Positions 6,501 through 33,277 of a stretch of DNA of 41,504 bases are shown here, piece after piece. Origin of the DNA: Gammaproteobacteria bacterium (lineage in GTDB: Bacteria; Pseudomonadota; Gammaproteobacteria; GCA-001735895); contig JALSKD010000182.1 in NCBI GenBank assembly GCA_026989015.1, positions 1 to 41,504 of the forward strand, in the 5' to 3' direction. Positions within the stretch are counted from its first letter, which is position 1. The number at the start of each line of letters is the position of its first letter. The translations under genes and the position numbers were made by a program. The notes under the pieces were generated by a model. The model did not search any database. It saw only the letters and a program-made list of their open reading frames with translations, and was not told the origin of the DNA.

Positions 6501-7675
6501 CGCCGCAGGTCCGCGATGTATTGCTTCAGCTCGGCCCAGGCCGGCATCGGGTCGCTCCATCGGTTGACCTCATGGCGCGTGGAAAAGGGGTGGGGTGTGA
6601 AAAAGGCGAGCAGCCGCCGCAGCTTGTCGCCGATTCCGTAGCGGCGGTCACGCAACACCAGGTAGAGGCTGTCCAGGTCACCGAGCAGCCAGCGCAGCCG
6701 CCGCCCGGTGCGGTAGCCGCTCATCTCGGGCAGGGGTTCTCCGCGGGTCGCTCGGTACAGCAGTTGCGGAAAATCCACGCCGGCGTCGATGGCCAGCTGC
6801 AGCGAGCCCCAGAAGCGGGTGTTTACCTCCATCAGCCAGGCCTTGCCCGATTCATCGATGCGAAATTCCACCATCGCCACCCCGTGCCAGCCGGCATCAT
6901 CCAGCAGTTCACGGGCGGCCTGTTGCATCCGGGGATCCGGTACAACGCTCTCGCTGAGCACGCTGACGCCCCCCTGGGGCGGTTTCTCGCGCAAGCGCCG
7001 GTGAGCGAAAAAGCAGACCGCCTGCCCGCGGTTGTAGAGCGCGAACACCCCTCCGCCATGGCCGGGGATGAAGCGCTGAAGCATGAATTCATGATCCTGC
7101 AGCCAGGGGCTGGTGGCGAGGCAGGCTTCCAGTTCCGCGCGGTCGCGCGCGATCTGCACCGAGGTGGTCAGCCAGCGATCGCCGAGCCACAGGTGCGAAC
7201 GGCAAGGCTTGATCACCACCGGATAGTCACCGATGGAGGCGGTATCGACCTCAGCTGCCCGCGCGAAAAGCTGCGATTCCGGCACCGCGATCCCCAGGCG
7301 GCCTGCCCGCTCCACCAGGCGGCCCTTGTCGCCCAGCGACAACAGCCGTTCGGCATCGGCGAAGGGCAGGGACAGGGCGGCCTCAGGATGCCGCTGGTTG
7401 TGCATCAGGATCAGCTGGCTGGTGAATTCGGTCATCGGAAACAGCAGATCGATGCCCTCCCGCTGCTGGCAGTCGGCCAACCAGTCGATGAACGCATCCG
7501 GCGCCTCACGAACCGAGGGATGCTGCGCGTAAGCGCGGCAAAAGCGCGAATGGCCGGCCAGTGCCCACGGCAGACTGTCGGCCGCCAGCAGCTCCAGCCC
7601 GTCCATGCGCCCCAGAGAGCGCATGCAGGCCAGCGCGCTGCGCTGGTTGGCATCGAGGATGAGGATACGCGGCAT
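6497..7675 (-). CDS. ATP-grasp family carboligase-like enzyme
   Basis: A 392-residue cytoplasmic protein with an ATP-grasp architecture. It has an N-terminal Rossmann-like domain (RILILDANQRSALACMRSLG) and an ATP-binding region with YPVVIKPCRSHLW. The catalytic stretch (GVAMVEFRIDESGKAWLMEVNTRFWGSLQLA) carries the metal-binding Glu and Asn of the ExNxR type. ATP-grasp enzymes join a carboxylate to an amine, thiol or other nucleophile through an acyl-phosphate; the substrate here cannot be read from sequence. The gene is divergent from mnmG and overlaps the GumN-like gene by 4 bp. That coupling suggests it modifies something handled in the envelope, but this is inference. Confidence 0.85.
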   Translation of the reverse strand: MPRILILDANQRSALACMRSLGRMDGLELLAADSLPWALAGHSRFCRAYAQHPSVREAPDAFIDWLADCQQREGIDLLFPMTEFTSQLILMHNQRHPEAALSLPFADAERLLSLGDKGRLVERAGRLGIAVPESQLFARAAEVDTASIGDYPVVIKPCRSHLWLGDRWLTTSVQIARDRAELEACLATSPWLQDHEFMLQRFIPGHGGGVFALYNRGQAVCFFAHRRLREKPPQGGVSVLSESVVPDPRMQQAARELLDDAGWHGVAMVEFRIDESGKAWLMEVNTRFWGSLQLAIDAGVDFPQLLYRATRGEPLPEMSGYRTGRRLRWLLGDLDSLYLVLRDRRYGIGDKLRRLLAFFTPHPFSTRHEVNRWSDPMPAWAELKQYIADLRR

Positions 7676-24213: not shown

Positions 24214-24738
24214 ATGAATTGCGTGGTCGACGCCTGGCAGCAGCACGAGGCCGAATTGCGCGGCTTCATACGCCAGCAGGTCGGAGATGCGGCCTTGGCC
24301 GAGGATCTGCTGCAGGATGTATTCGTCAAGGCTGTGGCCCAGGGCAGCCGGTTCTGTACGCTGGAGAATGTACGGGCCTGGCTGTTTCGCGTGACCCGCA
24401 ACCGCATTGTCGATTGGCGGCGCAGTCAGCGTGCCCATGATCCGGTTACGGAGCAGATCGCACAGCCCGAGGCGTACGAGGAGCCGGTGGTGAGCCTCTC
24501 CCAGTGTCTGCCCAGGGCGTTGGAGCGGCTGTCTCCCGCCGATCGGGAGATCCTCGAGCAGTGCGACCTCGAAGGGCTGCCACAGGCCGAGTATGCGGCC
24601 CGGCACGGACTCAGCCTTCCCGCCGCCAAATCACGCATCCAGCGGGCGCGCCGTCGCCTCAAGTCCGAGCTGGATCGTGCCTGTCATGTGAAACTCGACG
24701 AACAGGGTCGGGTGTGCTGTTTCAAGACGTCTTGCTGA
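24214..24738 (+). CDS. ECF sigma factor, SigZ-like, with Cys-rich C-terminal tail
   Basis: A 174-residue RNA polymerase sigma factor with region 2 (LAEDLLQDVFVKAVAQG, VRAWLFRVTRNRIVDWRR) and region 4 (LERLSPADREILEQCDLEGL, SLPAAKSRIQRARRRLKSEL). The last 18 residues (157-174) are CHVKLDEQGRVCCFKTSC. This places Cys157, His158, Cys168, Cys169 and Cys174 in one short tail. No anti-sigma gene lies next to it, so the tail may itself sense metal or redox state, as in other sigma factors with Cys-rich extensions. It begins 4 bp after the hypothetical gene and precedes a permease. The SigZ assignment comes from the domain layout and the C-x-VKLD-x-x-GxV tail shape. Confidence 0.88.
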   Translation: MNCVVDAWQQHEAELRGFIRQQVGDAALAEDLLQDVFVKAVAQGSRFCTLENVRAWLFRVTRNRIVDWRRSQRAHDPVTEQIAQPEAYEEPVVSLSQCLPRALERLSPADREILEQCDLEGLPQAEYAARHGLSLPAAKSRIQRARRRLKSELDRACHVKLDEQGRVCCFKTSC

Positions 24739-24775
24739 TGCTCGGCGAGGTGCATCCTTTTGCCCACTGATCCGT

Positions 24776-24807
24776 CTTCCCGGGTAACACACATTTTCCA
24801 TGGGAAG
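24776..24807. repeat. Inverted repeat upstream of the permease gene
   Basis: CTTCCC (24776-24781) and GGGAAG (24802-24807) are perfect 6-bp inverted arms 20 nt apart. They lie in the 74-bp gap between the sigma-factor and permease genes, just before the permease ATG (24813). The right arm includes the purine-rich stretch that probably serves as ribosome site, so pairing could limit translation. Short arms make chance likely. Confidence 0.3.
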
Positions 24808-24812
24808 CACAG

Positions 24813-25892
24813 ATGAACGAAATCAGTATCCGGAGCGACGCCGCAGGCACGCAGCAAAACGATGACCCGCGCCAGTTGACGAGCTGGCTGATTCGTATAG
24901 CCGTGGCGGTGCCGCTGTGGTTCTGGGTCTATGGGCAGCTCGATGGCTGGTCCAATTGGCTGGTGGAATGGATGGGGCTGAGCCGTGATACCCGGCTCGG
25001 CGAGTCCCTGCACTTCTTTTTTTACGACATGCCCAAGGTCATGCTGTTGCTGGCCGGAGTGGTTTTCTTCATGGGCATCGTCCAGACCTTTTTCACGCCG
25101 GAGCGGACGCGCGCGCTGCTGGCCGGCAAGCGGCTCGGCATCGGCAATACCCTGGCGGCGCTGCTGGGCATTGTCACCCCCTTCTGCTCCTGCTCGGCGG
25201 TGCCGCTGTTCATCGGCTTTCTCTCCGCCGGCGTGCCGCTGGGCGTGACCTTTTCCTTCCTGATCTCGGCACCGATGATCAATGAAATCGCGTTGATCCT
25301 GCTGTTCGGCCTGTTCGGCTGGAAAGTGGCCGCCCTGTATGTGGTCACCGGTCTGGGCATCGCCATCGTGGCCGGTCTGGTGATCGGCAAGCTGGGCATG
25401 GAGCGCTATCTCGAAGACTGGGTGCGCAAGATCCAGATGGGCGAAACCCCGCAGGCGTTGAAGGATCATCGCGGCTGGGTCAGCCGATTCCAGGCCGGAT
25501 GGGCCCATGTGCGCGAGATCGTCGGCAAGGTCTGGCCCTATGTGATGGCCGGTATTGCCATCGGTGCGCTGATTCACGGCTTCGTGCCACAGGATTTCAT
25601 GGCCTCGATCATGGGCCGCGATGCCTGGTGGTCGGTGCCGGCGGCGGTGGTGCTGGGCGTGCCCATGTACACCAATGCGGCCGGTGTGGTCCCGGTGGTG
25701 CAGGCGCTGATCGGCAAGGGCGCGGCGCTGGGTACCACCCTGGCCTTCATGATGAGCGTGATCGCCCTGTCCGCGCCGGAAATGATGATTCTGCGCAAGG
25801 TGCTCAAGCCTCGGCTTATCGCGACCTTCGTCGGCGTGGTCGCCAGCGGGATACTGCTGGTCGGCTTCCTGTTCAACGCGGTGCTGGGCTGA
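24813..25892 (+). CDS. Permease of the COG0701 (ArsP/YraQ-like) family
   Basis: A 359-residue inner-membrane protein with about eight helices. It has the family hallmark VTPFCSCSAVPLFIGFLSAGVPL (Cys125-Ser-Cys127), then FLISAPMINEIALILLF. In the second half it has VPMYTNAAGVVPVVQAL and LAFMMSVIALSAPEMMILRKVL. COG0701 members include ArsP, which exports trivalent organoarsenicals, and many uncharacterised relatives linked to small thioredoxin-like proteins. Substrate cannot be told from sequence. The neighbours, two small proteins with CC-ending tails and a sigma factor with a Cys tail, point to a thiophilic metal, metalloid or thiol compound. Confidence 0.88.
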   Translation: MNEISIRSDAAGTQQNDDPRQLTSWLIRIAVAVPLWFWVYGQLDGWSNWLVEWMGLSRDTRLGESLHFFFYDMPKVMLLLAGVVFFMGIVQTFFTPERTRALLAGKRLGIGNTLAALLGIVTPFCSCSAVPLFIGFLSAGVPLGVTFSFLISAPMINEIALILLFGLFGWKVAALYVVTGLGIAIVAGLVIGKLGMERYLEDWVRKIQMGETPQALKDHRGWVSRFQAGWAHVREIVGKVWPYVMAGIAIGALIHGFVPQDFMASIMGRDAWWSVPAAVVLGVPMYTNAAGVVPVVQALIGKGAALGTTLAFMMSVIALSAPEMMILRKVLKPRLIATFVGVVASGILLVGFLFNAVLG

Positions 25893-25917
25893 GCCGGACC
25901 CATTCGGAGCAATGAAC

Positions 25918-26217
25918 ATGTCAGATCAACCGGAATTGCATCCGTCCATTGTCGCGCTGGTCTCGCTAGCGGCCAACATCGCGTCCAACCATCCCAAACA
26001 GGGCTTGTGTCAGCTGGAGCGCCTGCGAGGGATGGGGGTGCCGCAGCACCAGATCGATGCGGTGGTGGAGATTGCCCGCCACATCCGCGACGAGGCCGGT
26101 CAGGCACTGGATCTGCGCTTCGATGAACAGTCCCGGGGCGGCCCGGCCGTCGATGCCTCCGAGGCCAGCGGCGAGGCCTGCTGTACGCCGACGGCAAGCG
26201 GACGGTCCTGCTGCTGA
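25918..26217 (+). CDS. Small AhpD/CMD-like helical protein with double-cysteine tail
   Basis: A 99-residue protein. Residues 10-60 have the helical pattern LVSLAANIASNHPKQGL, LERLRGMGVPQHQIDAVVEIARHIRDEAG, which recalls the carboxymuconolactone decarboxylase/AhpD core but lacks its catalytic CxxC. The C-terminus is EACCTPTASGRSCC, giving Cys88, Cys89, Cys98 and Cys99. I chose ATG 25918: the GGAG at 25906-25909 is 8 nt from it but only 2 nt from the in-frame ATG at 25912. The tail looks like a metal or metalloid ligand site, which is inference. It lies between the permease and thioredoxin-like genes in one direction. Confidence 0.72.
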   Translation: MSDQPELHPSIVALVSLAANIASNHPKQGLCQLERLRGMGVPQHQIDAVVEIARHIRDEAGQALDLRFDEQSRGGPAVDASEASGEACCTPTASGRSCC

Positions 26218-26250
26218 CGACCCCAATATTCAATCCACAGGAGTAAACTC

Positions 26251-26541
26251 ATGAAGCACATCAAGGTACTGGGCACGGGTTGTGCCAACTGCGAAAGCAC
26301 CCGCCAGCGCATCGAGGAGGCGGCACGCCGGCTGGGCGTCGAGGTCGAGGTGGAGAAGGTGGAGGATCTGGCCGAGATCATGAGCCACGGCGTGATGTCC
26401 ACGCCGGGCGTGATCGTGGACGGCACGCTGGTGCATGCCGGCGGCGTGCCGGATACGGTGGCCATCGAAGGCTGGCTCAAGGGCGGCGACAGCCCTTGCT
26501 GCAGCGGCAGCGAAAGCGCCGGTTCGGGCTGCTGCGGCTGA
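26251..26541 (+). CDS. Small thioredoxin-fold protein (redox-active disulfide type)
   Basis: A 96-residue protein with a thioredoxin-like fold: MKHIKVLGTGCANCESTRQ (active-site Cys11 and Cys14) and a cis-Pro segment (VMSTPGVIVDG). This fits the small thioredoxin family (TIGR00412-like redox-active disulfide proteins) that often accompanies COG0701 permeases. The tail SPCCSGSESAGSGCCG adds Cys83, Cys84, Cys94 and Cys95, which the core family does not need. An AGGAG ribosome site precedes the ATG. It probably reduces or carries a cargo for the adjacent permease. It ends 2 bp from the convergent yajL-like gene. Confidence 0.9.
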   Translation: MKHIKVLGTGCANCESTRQRIEEAARRLGVEVEVEKVEDLAEIMSHGVMSTPGVIVDGTLVHAGGVPDTVAIEGWLKGGDSPCCSGSESAGSGCCG

Positions 26542-29289: not shown

Positions 29290-30456
29290 TCAGGGCAGGC
29301 TGCGGAACCAGTTCTTGCTGCTGGCCCAACGGGCCGGATTCAGCGGCTTGCCCTTGCGCCGGATCTCGAAATACAGGGCCGGCGAGCTGCGTCCGCCGCT
29401 GTCGCCGATGCTGCCGATGATCTCGCCCGGCTCGACCCATTCCCCGGTCTGCTTGAACAACGCCTCATTGTGGCCGTAGAGCGAGAGGTAGCCGTCGCCA
29501 TGGTCGAGAATGATCAGGTTGCCATAGCCCCGCAGCCAGTCGGCGAAGGCGACCCGGCCACGGGCGATGGCGCGTACATTGTTGCCGGCCGGCGCTTCGA
29601 TCATCACCCCCTGCCAGCGCAGGCTGGACGGTGGCTTGCGCTTGCCGAACAGCTTGCGCACCCGGCCCTTGACCGGCCAGGAGAGCTTGCCGCGCAGCTT
29701 GGCGAATTTCTGTTGAGGGCGGGTTTCCGCCGGAGACCGTTCCAGCAGCCGGCCGAGGGAATCGATCAGCTGGCGAAGGTTGCGGGCGTTCTCCTCCAGC
29801 TGCGCCAGCTTGCGTCCCTTGCGGCCGAGCTCCTTGTCCAGTTCGGCCAGGATCCGCTGCCGCTCGCTGCGGTCGCGGTCCAGCCGCGCCTTCTGCCTGC
29901 GCTGGCGTTCCAGCGTCTGCTCCAGGGCCTGCCGGGCCTCGAGCACGCGCTGCTCGTGGGCAGCCAGTTGCTCGAAATCGGCCCGTGATGCGTCGAGCAG
30001 CCGCTGCCGCTGACGACCAAGATAGCGGTAGTAGGTAAGGTTGCGCTGCAGCCGCGACGGATCCTGCTGCGAGAACAGCAGACGCAGCGGTTCATTGGGA
30101 CCCTGGCGGTAGGCGTCACGCAGCTGCTCAGCCAGTTGCCGACGGTGGGTTTCCATGCGCTGTTCCAGCGCCTGCTGCTGGTCGCGCAAGCGCGCGAGCT
30201 TGCGCTGCTGCTTGCGGATGCGGTTGCGGGTGTCGCGCATCTCGCGGGCGAGGTCGGCGATCCGTTTCTCGATCCGGCGCAGCTTGCGGGTCTGGGCCGA
30301 CTTGCTGTTCTGGCGCTGTTCCATCTCCCTGCGCAGGCCGTCGATGCGCTGGATCAGCTGTTTGAGCTCGTGCTCCTTGCGCGCGCGTTCGTTGCTCGCC
30401 GCCAGTGCCGGCTGGCACAGGAAAAGGACGATCAGGAGCAGTGGAAAAAGGCGCAT
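29290..30456 (-). CDS. envC: Murein hydrolase activator EnvC
   Basis: EnvC activates the amidases AmiA/AmiB at the septum during cell division. The 388-residue product has a signal peptide (MRLFPLLLIVLFLCQPALA). A long coiled coil of two segments rich in Arg, Gln and Glu follows, then a C-terminal LytM (M23) domain. That domain is degenerate: RWQGVMIEAPAG lacks the metal-binding His/Asp of HxxxD, and SPALYFEIRRKGKPLNP lacks the first His of HxH. This is the EnvC condition, an activator rather than an enzyme. I chose ATG 30456 because a signal peptide follows it; the frame is open to 30525. In many relatives gpmI stands upstream, but not here. Confidence 0.92.
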   Translation of the reverse strand: MRLFPLLLIVLFLCQPALAASNERARKEHELKQLIQRIDGLRREMEQRQNSKSAQTRKLRRIEKRIADLAREMRDTRNRIRKQQRKLARLRDQQQALEQRMETHRRQLAEQLRDAYRQGPNEPLRLLFSQQDPSRLQRNLTYYRYLGRQRQRLLDASRADFEQLAAHEQRVLEARQALEQTLERQRRQKARLDRDRSERQRILAELDKELGRKGRKLAQLEENARNLRQLIDSLGRLLERSPAETRPQQKFAKLRGKLSWPVKGRVRKLFGKRKPPSSLRWQGVMIEAPAGNNVRAIARGRVAFADWLRGYGNLIILDHGDGYLSLYGHNEALFKQTGEWVEPGEIIGSIGDSGGRSSPALYFEIRRKGKPLNPARWASSKNWFRSLP

Positions 30457-30606
30457 GGAGCGGGTCTGCGGGCAGGTGAAATCGGTAGACGCGGCGGTGG
30501 ACGGCCGCAGCCGGATCATACTCAAATCGGCCTGCCAAGGCGACCCGGAGGAATGTGAAGGGTTTCAATACGAAACGGCTTCAGCTTGCTAGACAAAGCA
30601 AAATGA

Positions 30607-30634
30607 TTGCACCATAATGGTTGCCTAATATAAG
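30607..30634 (+). promoter_or_regulatory. Candidate promoter of the arsR-rhodanese-grxC unit
   Basis: TTGCAC (30607-30612), a 16-bp spacer and TATAAG (30629-30634) match the sigma70 hexamers at 5 of 6 positions each. The region 30585-30650 is much richer in A and T than its surroundings. Both palindromes listed next lie on or beside this promoter. Confidence 0.55.
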
Positions 30635-30648
30635 TAATTGATTAAATA
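30611..30648. promoter_or_regulatory. Two palindromes forming a likely ArsR-type operator region
   Basis: ACCATAATGGT (30611-30621) is a perfect 5-bp palindrome between the -35 and -10. TAAGTAATTGATTAAATA (30631-30648) is an imperfect palindrome whose core TAAT-TG-ATTA is perfect, lying from the -10 to the start codon. ArsR-family repressors bind AT-rich dyads in just this position, often in their own promoter, so autorepression is likely. The sequence is direct; the binding is inferred. Confidence 0.5.
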
Positions 30649-30654
30649 GTGACA

Positions 30655-30984
30655 ATGAAGCTCGATAGCGTACTCCCCGGCGAAACGCCGCAGCTGCTGA
30701 CCCGCGAAGAGGACATCGAACGCGCCTCCCGCTCGCTGAAGGCGATGTCGCATCCGCTGCGTCTGAAGATCCTCTGCACCCTGGGCGACCAGGAAGTCAG
30801 CGTGCAGGGCATCGTCGAAAGTGTCGGCACCTCGCAGAGCAATATCTCCCAGCACCTGGCCATTCTTCGCGACAAGGGCATCCTGTCCTCGCGCAAGGAC
30901 GCCAACCGTGTCTACTACCGGGTCGGTGACGCCCGCACGCTGCGCCTGATCAGCATGATGCAAGAAGTTTTCTGCACCAACTGA
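30655..30984 (+). CDS. ArsR-family repressor, BigR/SqrR-like persulfide sensor
   Basis: A 109-residue winged-helix repressor. It has the ArsR helix SLKAMSHPLRLKILCTLGDQE, the recognition helix SQSNISQHLAILRDKGIL and the wing RKDANRVYYRV. Counted from ATG 30655 it has only two cysteines: Cys41, in the helix before the HTH, and Cys107, three residues from the end. In BigR, SqrR and HlyU proteins this pair forms the polysulfide bridge that senses reactive sulfur species. The metal-binding ELCVCDL motif of arsenic sensors is absent. A GTG at 30649 would add two residues. The gene overlaps the rhodanese start by 1 nt, which fits control of sulfur handling. Confidence 0.9.
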   Translation: MKLDSVLPGETPQLLTREEDIERASRSLKAMSHPLRLKILCTLGDQEVSVQGIVESVGTSQSNISQHLAILRDKGILSSRKDANRVYYRVGDARTLRLISMMQEVFCTN

Positions 30985-31442
30985 TGCTGTCGCAGATCCT
31001 CGAGTTCATTTCCAACCATGCGTTGCTGTCGCTGGCCTTCGTGCTGGCGCTGGCGGCCGTGCTGTTCAACGAATACCGTAACCTGACCGCCGGCTTCAAG
31101 GCGGTCGGGCCGCTGATCGCCACCCGCATCATCAATGACCAGGATCCGCTGATCCTCGATGTGCGCGAGACTTCGGAGATCAAGGACGGCATCATCACCG
31201 ATGCCCTGCACATTCCGCTGGGTGAACTGCCGAAACGGATGGCGGAACTGGAGGTTCACCGCCAGCGTCCGGTGCTCGTCTACTGCCGCAGCGGCAGCCG
31301 CTCGGCCAGCGCCGCCCGGCGCCTGCGCCGGGCCGGTTTCGAAACCGTCTACAACCTGGCCGGCGGCATCATGGCCTGGGTCGATCAGCATCTGCCGGTG
31401 GTTCGCCCCGGCGGCCGCAAAAACAAGCGCAAGAAGAAATAG
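30984..31442 (+). CDS. Membrane-anchored rhodanese-like sulfurtransferase
   Basis: A 152-residue protein with one N-terminal membrane helix (ALLSLAFVLALAAVLF), then a single rhodanese domain with LILDVRETSEIKDG and the active-site loop VYCRSGSRSAS. The end is very basic (GGRKNKRKKK). Rhodaneses carry a persulfide on the active-site cysteine and move sulfane sulfur to acceptors. The domain is likely cytoplasmic, given the short N-terminus and basic end. Its ATG overlaps the stop of the ArsR gene (TGATG), so the two are coupled. grxC follows after 2 bp. In Pseudomonas a similar rhodanese sits next to grx and secB. Confidence 0.92.
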   Translation: MLSQILEFISNHALLSLAFVLALAAVLFNEYRNLTAGFKAVGPLIATRIINDQDPLILDVRETSEIKDGIITDALHIPLGELPKRMAELEVHRQRPVLVYCRSGSRSASAARRLRRAGFETVYNLAGGIMAWVDQHLPVVRPGGRKNKRKKK

Positions 31443-31444
31443 CC

Positions 31445-31702
31445 ATGCCCGAGATCGTCATCTACTGCAGTGCCTTCTGCCCCTATTGCAACTGGGCCAA
31501 ACGCTTGCTCGATTCCAAGAACGCCAGCTACACCGAAATTCGCATCGATCAGGTCGAAGGCGCCCGCGACGAGATGCTGCAGCGCAGCAACGGCCGGATG
31601 ACGGTACCGCAGATCTTTATCGGCGACCTCCATGTCGGCGGCTTCGACGACCTGCAGGCGATGGACCGTGCCGGCAAGCTGGACCCGTTGCTGGCGGGCT
31701 GA
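31445..31702 (+). CDS. grxC: Glutaredoxin 3
   Basis: An 85-residue dithiol glutaredoxin that uses glutathione to reduce protein disulfides and mixed disulfides in the cytosol. It has the active site CPYC (Cys12, Cys15) after MPEIVIYCSAF, the cis-Pro TVPQIFIGDLHVGGFDDL with the glutathione-binding GG, and a short C-terminal helix. Length and motifs are those of GrxC. It lies 2 bp after the rhodanese gene and before secB, the usual gammaproteobacterial order. Confidence 0.95.
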   Translation: MPEIVIYCSAFCPYCNWAKRLLDSKNASYTEIRIDQVEGARDEMLQRSNGRMTVPQIFIGDLHVGGFDDLQAMDRAGKLDPLLAG

Positions 31703-31787: not shown

Positions 31788-32270
31788 ATGACCGACCAAG
31801 CCGCCCCCGAAAACCAGTTCTCCATCCAGAAGCTCTACATCAAGGATGTCTCCTTCGAGTCACCGGATACCCCGTCGGTCTTCGCCTTCGACAGCTGGGA
31901 GCCGCAGATCGAGCTGAACCTCAACAATGCCAGCAAGCAGGTCACCGAAGGCGTCTACGAGGTGATCATGAGCATCACCGCCACGGTCAAGAACAACGAC
32001 AAGACGGCCTTCCTGGTCGAGGTCCAGCAGGCCGGGCTGTTCAACATCAGCGGATTCAACGAGCAGGACACCCGCTACATCCTCGGTGCCCAGTGCATGA
32101 ACATCCTGTTCCCCTATGCGCGTGAAGTGGTTTCCGACCTCACCAACCGCGGCGGATTCCCGCCGTTGCTGCTCAACCCGGTCAATTTCGATGCGCTCTA
32201 TGCCCAAGCGATGCAGAAACAGCAGGCCGAAGCGGGTGCCGAGGGCGACGAGTCGCAGACCCAGCACTGA
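31788..32270 (+). CDS. secB: Preprotein translocase chaperone SecB
   Basis: SecB is a homotetrameric chaperone that keeps exported proteins unfolded and hands them to SecA. The 160-residue product has the family core FSIQKLYIKDVSFESPDTP, followed by LNLNNASKQVTEGVYEVIMSITAT. It also has the acidic QDTRYILGAQCMNILFPYAREVV and the conserved NRGGFPPLLLNPVNFDALYAQ. The C-terminus is acidic, which contacts SecA in known SecB. The position between grxC and gpsA is conserved in gammaproteobacteria. Confidence 0.97.
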   Translation: MTDQAAPENQFSIQKLYIKDVSFESPDTPSVFAFDSWEPQIELNLNNASKQVTEGVYEVIMSITATVKNNDKTAFLVEVQQAGLFNISGFNEQDTRYILGAQCMNILFPYAREVVSDLTNRGGFPPLLLNPVNFDALYAQAMQKQQAEAGAEGDESQTQH

Positions 32271-32275
32271 GCGGC

Positions 32276-33277
32276 ATGAGCCGGCGCGAAACCATCGCGG
32301 TACTCGGCGCCGGGTCCTGGGGTACGGCGCTGGCCCTGCAGCTGGCCCGCAACGGCCATGCGGTACGCCTGTGGGGACATGAACCCGGACACATCGAACG
32401 CTTGCGCCGCGAGCGTGAAAACCGCGCCTTTCTGCCCGGCATCGCACTGCCCGAGGCCATCGAGCCGATCGCCGACCTGGGCGCGGCCGTGGACGGTTTG
32501 CGGCATCTGCTGATCGTCATCCCGAGCAAGGCCTATCGCGACTTCCTGCGTCGGCTCAAGCCGCTGATCGATGAGCGGGTGCGGGTCTTCTGGGCCAGCA
32601 AGGGCTTCGAGATCGAGACCGGAAAGTTTCTTCATGAACTGGTGGAGGAAGAGCTGGGCAGCAGCTGTTACGGCGTCATCTCCGGCCCCACTTTTGCTAC
32701 CGAGGTGGCGCGTGGCTTGCCGTCCTCGGTGACCTGCGCCGGCAACCGCGCCGACGCCACCCGCTCCTTCGCCGAACTGCTGCACGGCGGTCATTTTCGC
32801 TGTTACACCTCGGACGACATCATCGGTGTCGAGATAGGCGGCGCGTTGAAGAATGTCCTCGCCATCGCCGTCGGTGCCGCCGATGGCCTCGGCTTCGGCG
32901 CCAATACCCGCGCCGCGCTGATCACCCGAGGGCTGGCCGAGGTGATGCGTTTCGGTGCCGCTTTCGGCGCCCGCGAGAAAACGCTGATGGGGCTGTCCGG
33001 TCTGGGTGACCTGATCCTCACCTGCACCGATGACCAGAGCCGCAACCGCCGCTTCGGGCTGGCCATCGGTCGCGGCCTGGGGATTGAGCAGGCGATCGAG
33101 GACATTGGCCAGACCGTCGAAGGCTATCGCGCGGCGCGGGCCGTCTATGAGATGGCCGGCAACAAGGCTGTGCAGATCCCGATCATGGAGCAGGTCTACA
33201 AGGTGCTCTACGAGGACAAGTCGCCGGCCGAGGCGGTCAGCGATCTCGAAGGTCGGGATCTGAAATCCGAATCCTGA
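32276..33277 (+). CDS. gpsA: Glycerol-3-phosphate dehydrogenase [NAD(P)+]
   Basis: GpsA reduces dihydroxyacetone phosphate to sn-glycerol-3-phosphate, the backbone of membrane phospholipids. The 333-residue product has the Rossmann motif IAVLGAGSWGTALALQLARNG. The region SKGFEIETG...VISGPTFATEVARGLPS follows, then EIGGALKNVLAIAVGAADGLGFGAN and TLMGLSGLGDLILTCTDDQSRNRRFG, which are family hallmarks. It starts 5 bp after secB and is convergent with trmL. Confidence 0.97.
   Translation: MSRRETIAVLGAGSWGTALALQLARNGHAVRLWGHEPGHIERLRRERENRAFLPGIALPEAIEPIADLGAAVDGLRHLLIVIPSKAYRDFLRRLKPLIDERVRVFWASKGFEIETGKFLHELVEEELGSSCYGVISGPTFATEVARGLPSSVTCAGNRADATRSFAELLHGGHFRCYTSDDIIGVEIGGALKNVLAIAVGAADGLGFGANTRAALITRGLAEVMRFGAAFGAREKTLMGLSGLGDLILTCTDDQSRNRRFGLAIGRGLGIEQAIEDIGQTVEGYRAARAVYEMAGNKAVQIPIMEQVYKVLYEDKSPAEAVSDLEGRDLKSES

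Follow-up and report, generated by a model that had tools for sequence, protein, structure and literature searches.

All known ArsR repressors that sense reactive sulfur species carry cysteines in helices 2 and 5, and sulfurtransferase genes adjoin their own genes (PMC10509353). SqrR, BigR, HlyU and YgaV belong to SSN cluster 4 of these proteins (PMC10509353); the polysulfide link of SqrR is reduced by TrxC, which is its off-switch (PMC10044876), and heme binding has been reported for SqrR and YgaV (PMC9774250). SoxR and sHdrR of the sulfur oxidiser Hyphomicrobium, two-Cys ArsR proteins of the sulfane-sulfur-responsive type, regulate the sox and shdr clusters (PMC12423496). In Escherichia coli, the ygaVP operon encodes the two-Cys ArsR repressor YgaV and, after it, the membrane-bound rhodanese YgaP. 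Another rhodanese of E. coli, YibN, is encoded in the gene order yibN-grxC-secB-gpsA, with gpmM-envC-yibQ in divergent orientation and without an arsR gene. According to the literature, E. coli YibN did not increase cellular sulfane sulfur. What YibN and its rhodanese domain do is acknowledged to be an open question (PMC12282094).

Here, we describe a locus in which a two-Cys ArsR repressor is encoded directly upstream of a YibN-type rhodanese. The window, a DNA stretch of 41,504 nucleotides, is part of a gammaproteobacterial draft genome of 2.9 Mb, in which it lies on contig C182; this genome also carries dsrA (contig C53) and soxB (contig C65). The features of the locus are listed in Table 1. 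The tight spacing of the genes was recognized correctly in the original prediction: the TGA of arsR and the ATG of the rhodanese gene share position 30,984, and the start of grxC is located 2 bp past the rhodanese stop codon. Between grxC and secB, there are 85 bp. An in-frame GTG at 30,649 is an alternative start of arsR. The genes ctpA and yibQ are found upstream of arsR and are encoded, like envC, on the opposite strand. Beyond yibQ-ctpA-envC and around 4 kb from arsR, there is a separate unit on the forward strand (24,214-26,541), which might be mistaken for part of the arsR locus.

Table 1. Positions of genes, protein motifs and promoter elements in the window
Feature	Position	Strand	Basis
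ECF-type sigma factor (separate unit)	24214-24738	+	
ArsP-type permease (separate unit)	24813-25892	+	PF03773
Short Cys-rich ORF (separate unit)	25912-26217	+	
Small Thioredoxin_3/ArsE-like protein (separate unit)	26251-26541	+	
envC, divergent from arsR	29290-30456	-	Beside the locus in most relatives (80 loci)
Sigma-70-like promoter: TAGACA (30590-30595), 17 nt, CATAAT (30613-30618)	30590-30618	+	10/12 consensus match
Candidate operator CATAAT-n6-CTAATATAA-n5-TGATTA	30613-30645	+	Phylogenetic footprint, 26 loci
arsR, two-Cys ArsR/SmtB-family repressor, 109 aa from ATG	30655-30984	+	HTH_5, PDB relatives, fold
Cys41 codon, helix 2	30775-30777	+	Sequence; model helix 34-43
Cys107 codon, directly past helix 5	30973-30975	+	Sequence; model helix 93-106 (low local confidence for residues 107-109)
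YibN-type membrane rhodanese, 152 aa, one N-terminal TM helix	30984-31442	+	Pfam Rhodanese, 73.5 bits
Rhodanese active-site loop C101-R-S-G-S-R (residues 101-106)	Codons 31284-31301	+	Sequence
grxC, glutaredoxin 3, dithiol CPYC	31445-31702	+	TIGR02181, 120 bits (cut-off 90)
secB, ancestral neighbour	31788-32270	+	PF02556, 188 bits; gene order alike in E. coli, without arsR
gpsA, ancestral neighbour	32276-33277	+	NAD_Gly3P_dh domains; E. coli synteny

ArsR contains only two cysteines, Cys41 and Cys107, the positions described for SqrR. The equivalence to BigR, also stated in the original prediction, held in an alignment, in which both columns match the Cys pair of BigR (3pqj), YgaV (3cuo) and HlyU; the match to SqrR (6o8k, 13ct) spans residues 22-108. 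Both cysteines are kept in all 104 orthologues, and 86 of these have no further cysteine in the core. In sub-group g3 (L022, L023, L028, L030 and L031), a third cysteine is present at position 49 (EVCVQ versus EVSVQ) beside the invariant pair. The Pfam domain HTH_5 is found in ArsR with 47.7 bits (cut-off 22), and the best PDB relatives are BigR, YgaV, HlyU, SqrR and NolR with E values of 9e-18 to 3e-14, while the SmtB-type metal sensors trail with 7e-8 or weaker. HlyU, BigR, SqrR and YgaV are also among the top Foldseek matches of the predicted ArsR model, which is of moderate confidence (mean pLDDT 74); the TM-scores are 0.94 for HlyU, 0.84 for BigR and 0.90 for SqrR by target. As judged by family, predicted fold, Cys pair and neighbour, ArsR can be placed among the known reactive-sulfur-sensing ArsR proteins as a new, putative member of this group.

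With SqrR, BigR, HlyU and YgaV, the window ArsR shares the ArsR fold, the cysteines in helices 2 and 5, the absence of a metal site, a rhodanese neighbour and 34-39% sequence identity. It differs from them in that it forms its own orthologue group at the envC/gpmI-yibN locus of Gammaproteobacteria, is far more conserved and has no sqr, pdo or blh gene adjoining. An assignment to the NCBIfam BigR equivalog (NF040642) was rejected, since ArsR reaches 78.5 bits and the curated cut-off is 155, and a single-domain rhodanese gene followed by grxC takes the place of the sulfurtransferase/dioxygenase (Blh) operon. Likewise, the locus is not a ygaVP operon, even though a two-Cys ArsR gene precedes a membrane-bound rhodanese gene in both. 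The YgaP transmembrane domain PF11127 has no match in the window rhodanese or elsewhere in the window, the transmembrane helix of the rhodanese is N-terminal, and grxC and secB follow. The rhodanese is 33% identical to E. coli YibN over 141 amino acids, which is the whole length (E value 9e-30), compared to an E value of 2e-5 for YgaP, and this similarity identifies it as the YibN orthologue. The Hyphomicrobium proteins SoxR and sHdrR are likewise two-Cys ArsR proteins of a sulfur oxidiser; however, their targets are sox and shdr clusters, whereas the window ArsR is located at yibN.

The 80 nearest loci, which are the best ArsR matches in named genomes, come from Thiorhodospira, Ectothiorhodospira, Thiohalophilus, Thiothrix, Thiolinea, Thiohalocapsa, Competibacteraceae and others. 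In 79 of them, arsR is located upstream of the rhodanese gene, and the remaining locus ends at a contig end. Cultured carriers of the gene include Thiohalophilus thiocyanatoxydans DSM 16326 (L074) and Thiothrix fructosivorans (L106). Because these loci had been chosen as best ArsR matches, an evenly spread class sample was used as well, which comprises 140 gammaproteobacterial genomes, nearly all of different families. Orthologues of ArsR (E value below 1e-30) are present in 69 of the 140 genomes, and in 65 of these 69, arsR lies less than 1 kb from a YibN-type rhodanese gene. Among the 96 loci that have both rhodanese and SecB, grxC directly follows the rhodanese gene in 42, and a gene for a zinc-ribbon thioredoxin 2 is found inside the locus in 25. 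A separate YgaP-like transmembrane protein (PF11127) is encoded between arsR and the rhodanese gene in 8 of the 96 loci, and in 11 relatives once loci that end before secB are counted. The one constant partner of arsR is the rhodanese gene. The original prediction had further placed secB under possible sulfur control, which could not be upheld. E. coli shares the order yibN-grxC-secB-gpsA and the divergent envC-yibQ with the window but lacks arsR; the linkage of secB and gpsA is therefore old synteny, which on its own does not put secB under sulfur control, and even the adjacency of grxC and the rhodanese gene is limited to the 42 loci mentioned above.

The distribution of ArsR follows that of sulfur oxidation genes. 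In the class sample, ArsR is present in 49 of the 50 genomes with a dsrA match above the cut-off and in 20 of the 90 genomes without one (Fisher's test, 3e-20). Genomes with dsrA or soxB encode ArsR in 58 of 66 cases, compared to 11 of 74 genomes with neither gene; as these 11 belong to the 69 ArsR-containing genomes, the function of ArsR is not confined to sulfur oxidisers. Since kinship inflates such co-occurrence tests, an RpoB tree of 100 class-sample genomes was built from reading frames chosen by RpoB motifs. It is a "quick" build with many unsupported branches, and 9-14 supported pairs were available for each sign test. The supported branches force at least 10 changes of ArsR presence. 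In 12 independent pairs that differ in dsrA, ArsR changed in the same direction in 7.8 and in the opposite direction in 0.3 pairs on average (median p 0.016); the corresponding values for soxB are 7.4 and 1.1 of 14 pairs (median p 0.07). A second group of two-Cys ArsR proteins, which are 45-60% identical to the window ArsR, occurs in other gammaproteobacterial families (L142, L143, L146, L148, L153 and similar loci). Their genes are often located beside those of a hybrid histidine kinase and a PAS-containing response regulator, and no sulfur gene was seen in the neighbourhoods of these paralogues.

The state of the YibN active site also differs with the presence of ArsR. Three other rhodaneses require the residue at the end of the catalytic loop for sulfur transfer, and the loop-end arginine is essential to this reaction in RDL2 and in a DUF442 rhodanese (PMC8533005). 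A loop was counted as competent if it starts with cysteine and ends with arginine (or threonine/serine), which applies to the window rhodanese; its loop CRSGSR aligns with DGSGMQ of E. coli YibN, whose gene spans 6,585-7,016 of locus L192 and in which aspartate occupies the position of the catalytic cysteine. In the class sample, 48 of 49 ArsR-encoding genomes have the loop CxxGxR, the sole exception ending in phenylalanine, compared to 8 of 61 genomes without ArsR. Three of these eight genomes (G106, G156 and G174) carry soxB, and two of the three (G106 and G174) encode an ArsR paralogue of 52-56% identity. On the RpoB tree, the loop changed in the same direction as ArsR in 7.1 of 9 pairs that differ in ArsR and in the opposite direction in none (median p 0.016); the tree of YibN itself is too poorly resolved for an independence test. 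If loops ending in threonine or serine are also counted as competent, the numbers are 48 of 49 versus 24 of 61, and the tree test weakens to 5.6 of 9 pairs (median p 0.03). In 15 of the 61 YibN loops from genomes without ArsR, the cysteine position has decayed to Asp, Ala, Tyr, Ser, Gly or His. It is conceivable, although we regard this only as a tentative proposal with a little less than even chances, that gammaproteobacterial YibN comes in two states. In lineages that handle sulfur, it would be a competent sulfurtransferase controlled by a dedicated, near-frozen persulfide repressor; the other form would be ungated, with a decayed active site, and would have acquired a different role in the envelope. 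The losses of repressor and active site would then be coupled events that occurred repeatedly.

Two palindromes had been noted in the arsR promoter in the original prediction. They do exist (ACCATAATGGT, 30,611-30,621, and TAATTGATTA, 30,635-30,644); however, they do not exceed chance, as three dyads were observed in the promoter stretch and base shuffles gave a mean of 3.2, with a dyad arm as long or longer in 48% of the shuffles. The palindromes therefore carry no weight alone. An alignment of 26 family upstream regions revealed blocks conserved above chance (TaGACA-17-CATAAT-6-CTAATATtA), in which both promoter hexamers are conserved across the 26 loci, and this footprint is the better operator candidate. 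The candidate operator overlaps the -10 box and extends past it. In more distant relatives, the corresponding stretch is the 27-bp element TATTATTGTATAATGTTTTATTAATAAA, as determined by expectation-maximisation on 89 upstream regions. Coverage of the -10 box and of the expected start site would fit a repressor site, and the element can be regarded as a candidate operator.

Taken together, the cysteine geometry, family, fold, invariant cysteine pair and near-constant rhodanese linkage support the original view that ArsR is of the reactive-sulfur-sensing type and is coupled to a sulfurtransferase, and this view gained further backing from the co-occurrence with Dsr sulfur oxidation and from the intact rhodanese active sites, which are found mainly where ArsR is kept. 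It is probable that the locus functions as an autoregulated sulfane-sulfur switch acting on arsR-rhodanese-grxC, for which we infer the ligand, the DNA binding, the direction of regulation and the reset step. A reduced ArsR dimer would bind to AT-rich DNA over and just downstream of the -10 box of its own promoter and thereby prevent arsR-rhodanese-grxC from being transcribed. Once the level of persulfides or polysulfides increases, as would be expected in this Dsr/Sox sulfur oxidiser, a polysulfide link would bridge Cys41 and Cys107 and the repressor would leave the DNA; this bridge chemistry is assigned to the window ArsR by precedent. The membrane rhodanese and Grx3 would be made once repression ends. 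The rhodanese, located in the inner membrane and equipped with a competent CxxGxR loop, would then take up sulfane sulfur and hand it on, and Grx3, together with thioredoxin 2 in many relatives, would reduce the product persulfides. Grx3 or thioredoxin 2 may also reset the repressor, thereby closing a feedback loop, and such a thiol reset has a direct precedent in the TrxC-SqrR pair.

The two cysteines could also form a disulfide, and a glutaredoxin, or thioredoxin 2 in relatives, is encoded nearby; ArsR might thus be a thiol redox sensor for oxidants such as peroxide or disulfide stress, with the rhodanese and Grx3 used for oxidative-stress repair. This seems unlikely, since the peroxide-sensing ArsR RexT belongs to another cluster and uses two cysteines of helix 3, and HlyU, which has the same cysteine geometry as ArsR, reacts with persulfides but with neither H2O2 nor GSSG (PMC10509353). 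Furthermore, the constant partner is the rhodanese, and GrxC is absent beside it in more than half of the loci. A classical metal or arsenic sensor of the ArsR/SmtB type is suggested by the NCBIfam model "metalloregulator ArsR/SmtB family" (83.5 bits) and by the ArsP-like permease encoded around 4.8 kb upstream of arsR. This function was rejected as extremely improbable because the metal ligands are missing: ArsR has no CxC in helix 3 and no histidine in helix 5, and its only two cysteines are those of the sulfur sensors. Across the 80 loci, arsR is constantly flanked by envelope genes and, at its opposite end, by rhodanese-(grxC)-secB-gpsA, and the permease gene is part of another unit past yibQ-ctpA-envC.

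The linkage and conservation of the locus could simply reflect vertical inheritance of an old gene order that has no functional tie with the rhodanese or with sulfur oxidation, as envC and the order yibN-grxC-secB-gpsA are ancient in Gammaproteobacteria, including E. coli. We consider this improbable, since supported branches of the RpoB tree force repeated changes of ArsR presence, which changes of dsrA and of the rhodanese loop tend to accompany. The conservation of ArsR itself leads to another possibility. Mean pairwise identity over the 80 loci is 88% for the ArsR core, a figure raised by the choice of best ArsR matches, versus 42% for the rhodanese, 54% for GrxC, 53% for SecB and 56% for GpsA; most orthologues of the even sample are still 73-94% identical to the window ArsR, and the recognition helix TSQSNISQHLAILRDKGIL is invariant in an alignment of 15 sequences. 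So strong a constraint is unusual for a repressor that acts locally and has a single visible operator. The near-frozen sequence would be accounted for if ArsR were a global regulator, as has been proposed for YgaV, with many sulfur or respiratory genes as targets and the local operon only one of them. Nevertheless, such a role is rather doubtful: the full 27-bp promoter element (up to 3 mismatches) occurs once per genome and always at arsR in 20 of 20 genomes of distant relatives, in which the reversed-pattern control gave no match, and shorter operator forms are near the level of this control in 10 genomes. The pattern search in the own genome gave seven matches compared to none in the reversed control, and no recognisable sulfur gene adjoins the six loose matches outside arsR, which were found by eye to lie near coq7-, maf- and fmdB-aspS-like genes, a metalloprotease and an AAA ATPase. 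As the regulon was searched by pattern, weaker or half sites would escape. Hidden sites of the weak kind, the binding of heme or an interaction with a protein such as a thioredoxin could possibly explain the constraint on ArsR.

In the literature searched, which lay mostly outside subscription journals, no paper joining an ArsR to yibN was found. A dedicated repressor on YibN, which tracks both Dsr sulfur oxidation and the integrity of the YibN active site, thus looks like a new arrangement. With a single candidate operator per genome, sulfur-dependent control of the locus would be testable in one step. The locus provides one regulator that is common to nearly all sampled Dsr-type gammaproteobacterial sulfur oxidisers. 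The data propose that the original role of YibN was sulfane-sulfur transfer under persulfide control, and they predict which genomes keep this role; if YibN does exist in two states, E. coli YibN would be an example of the ungated form with a decayed active site.
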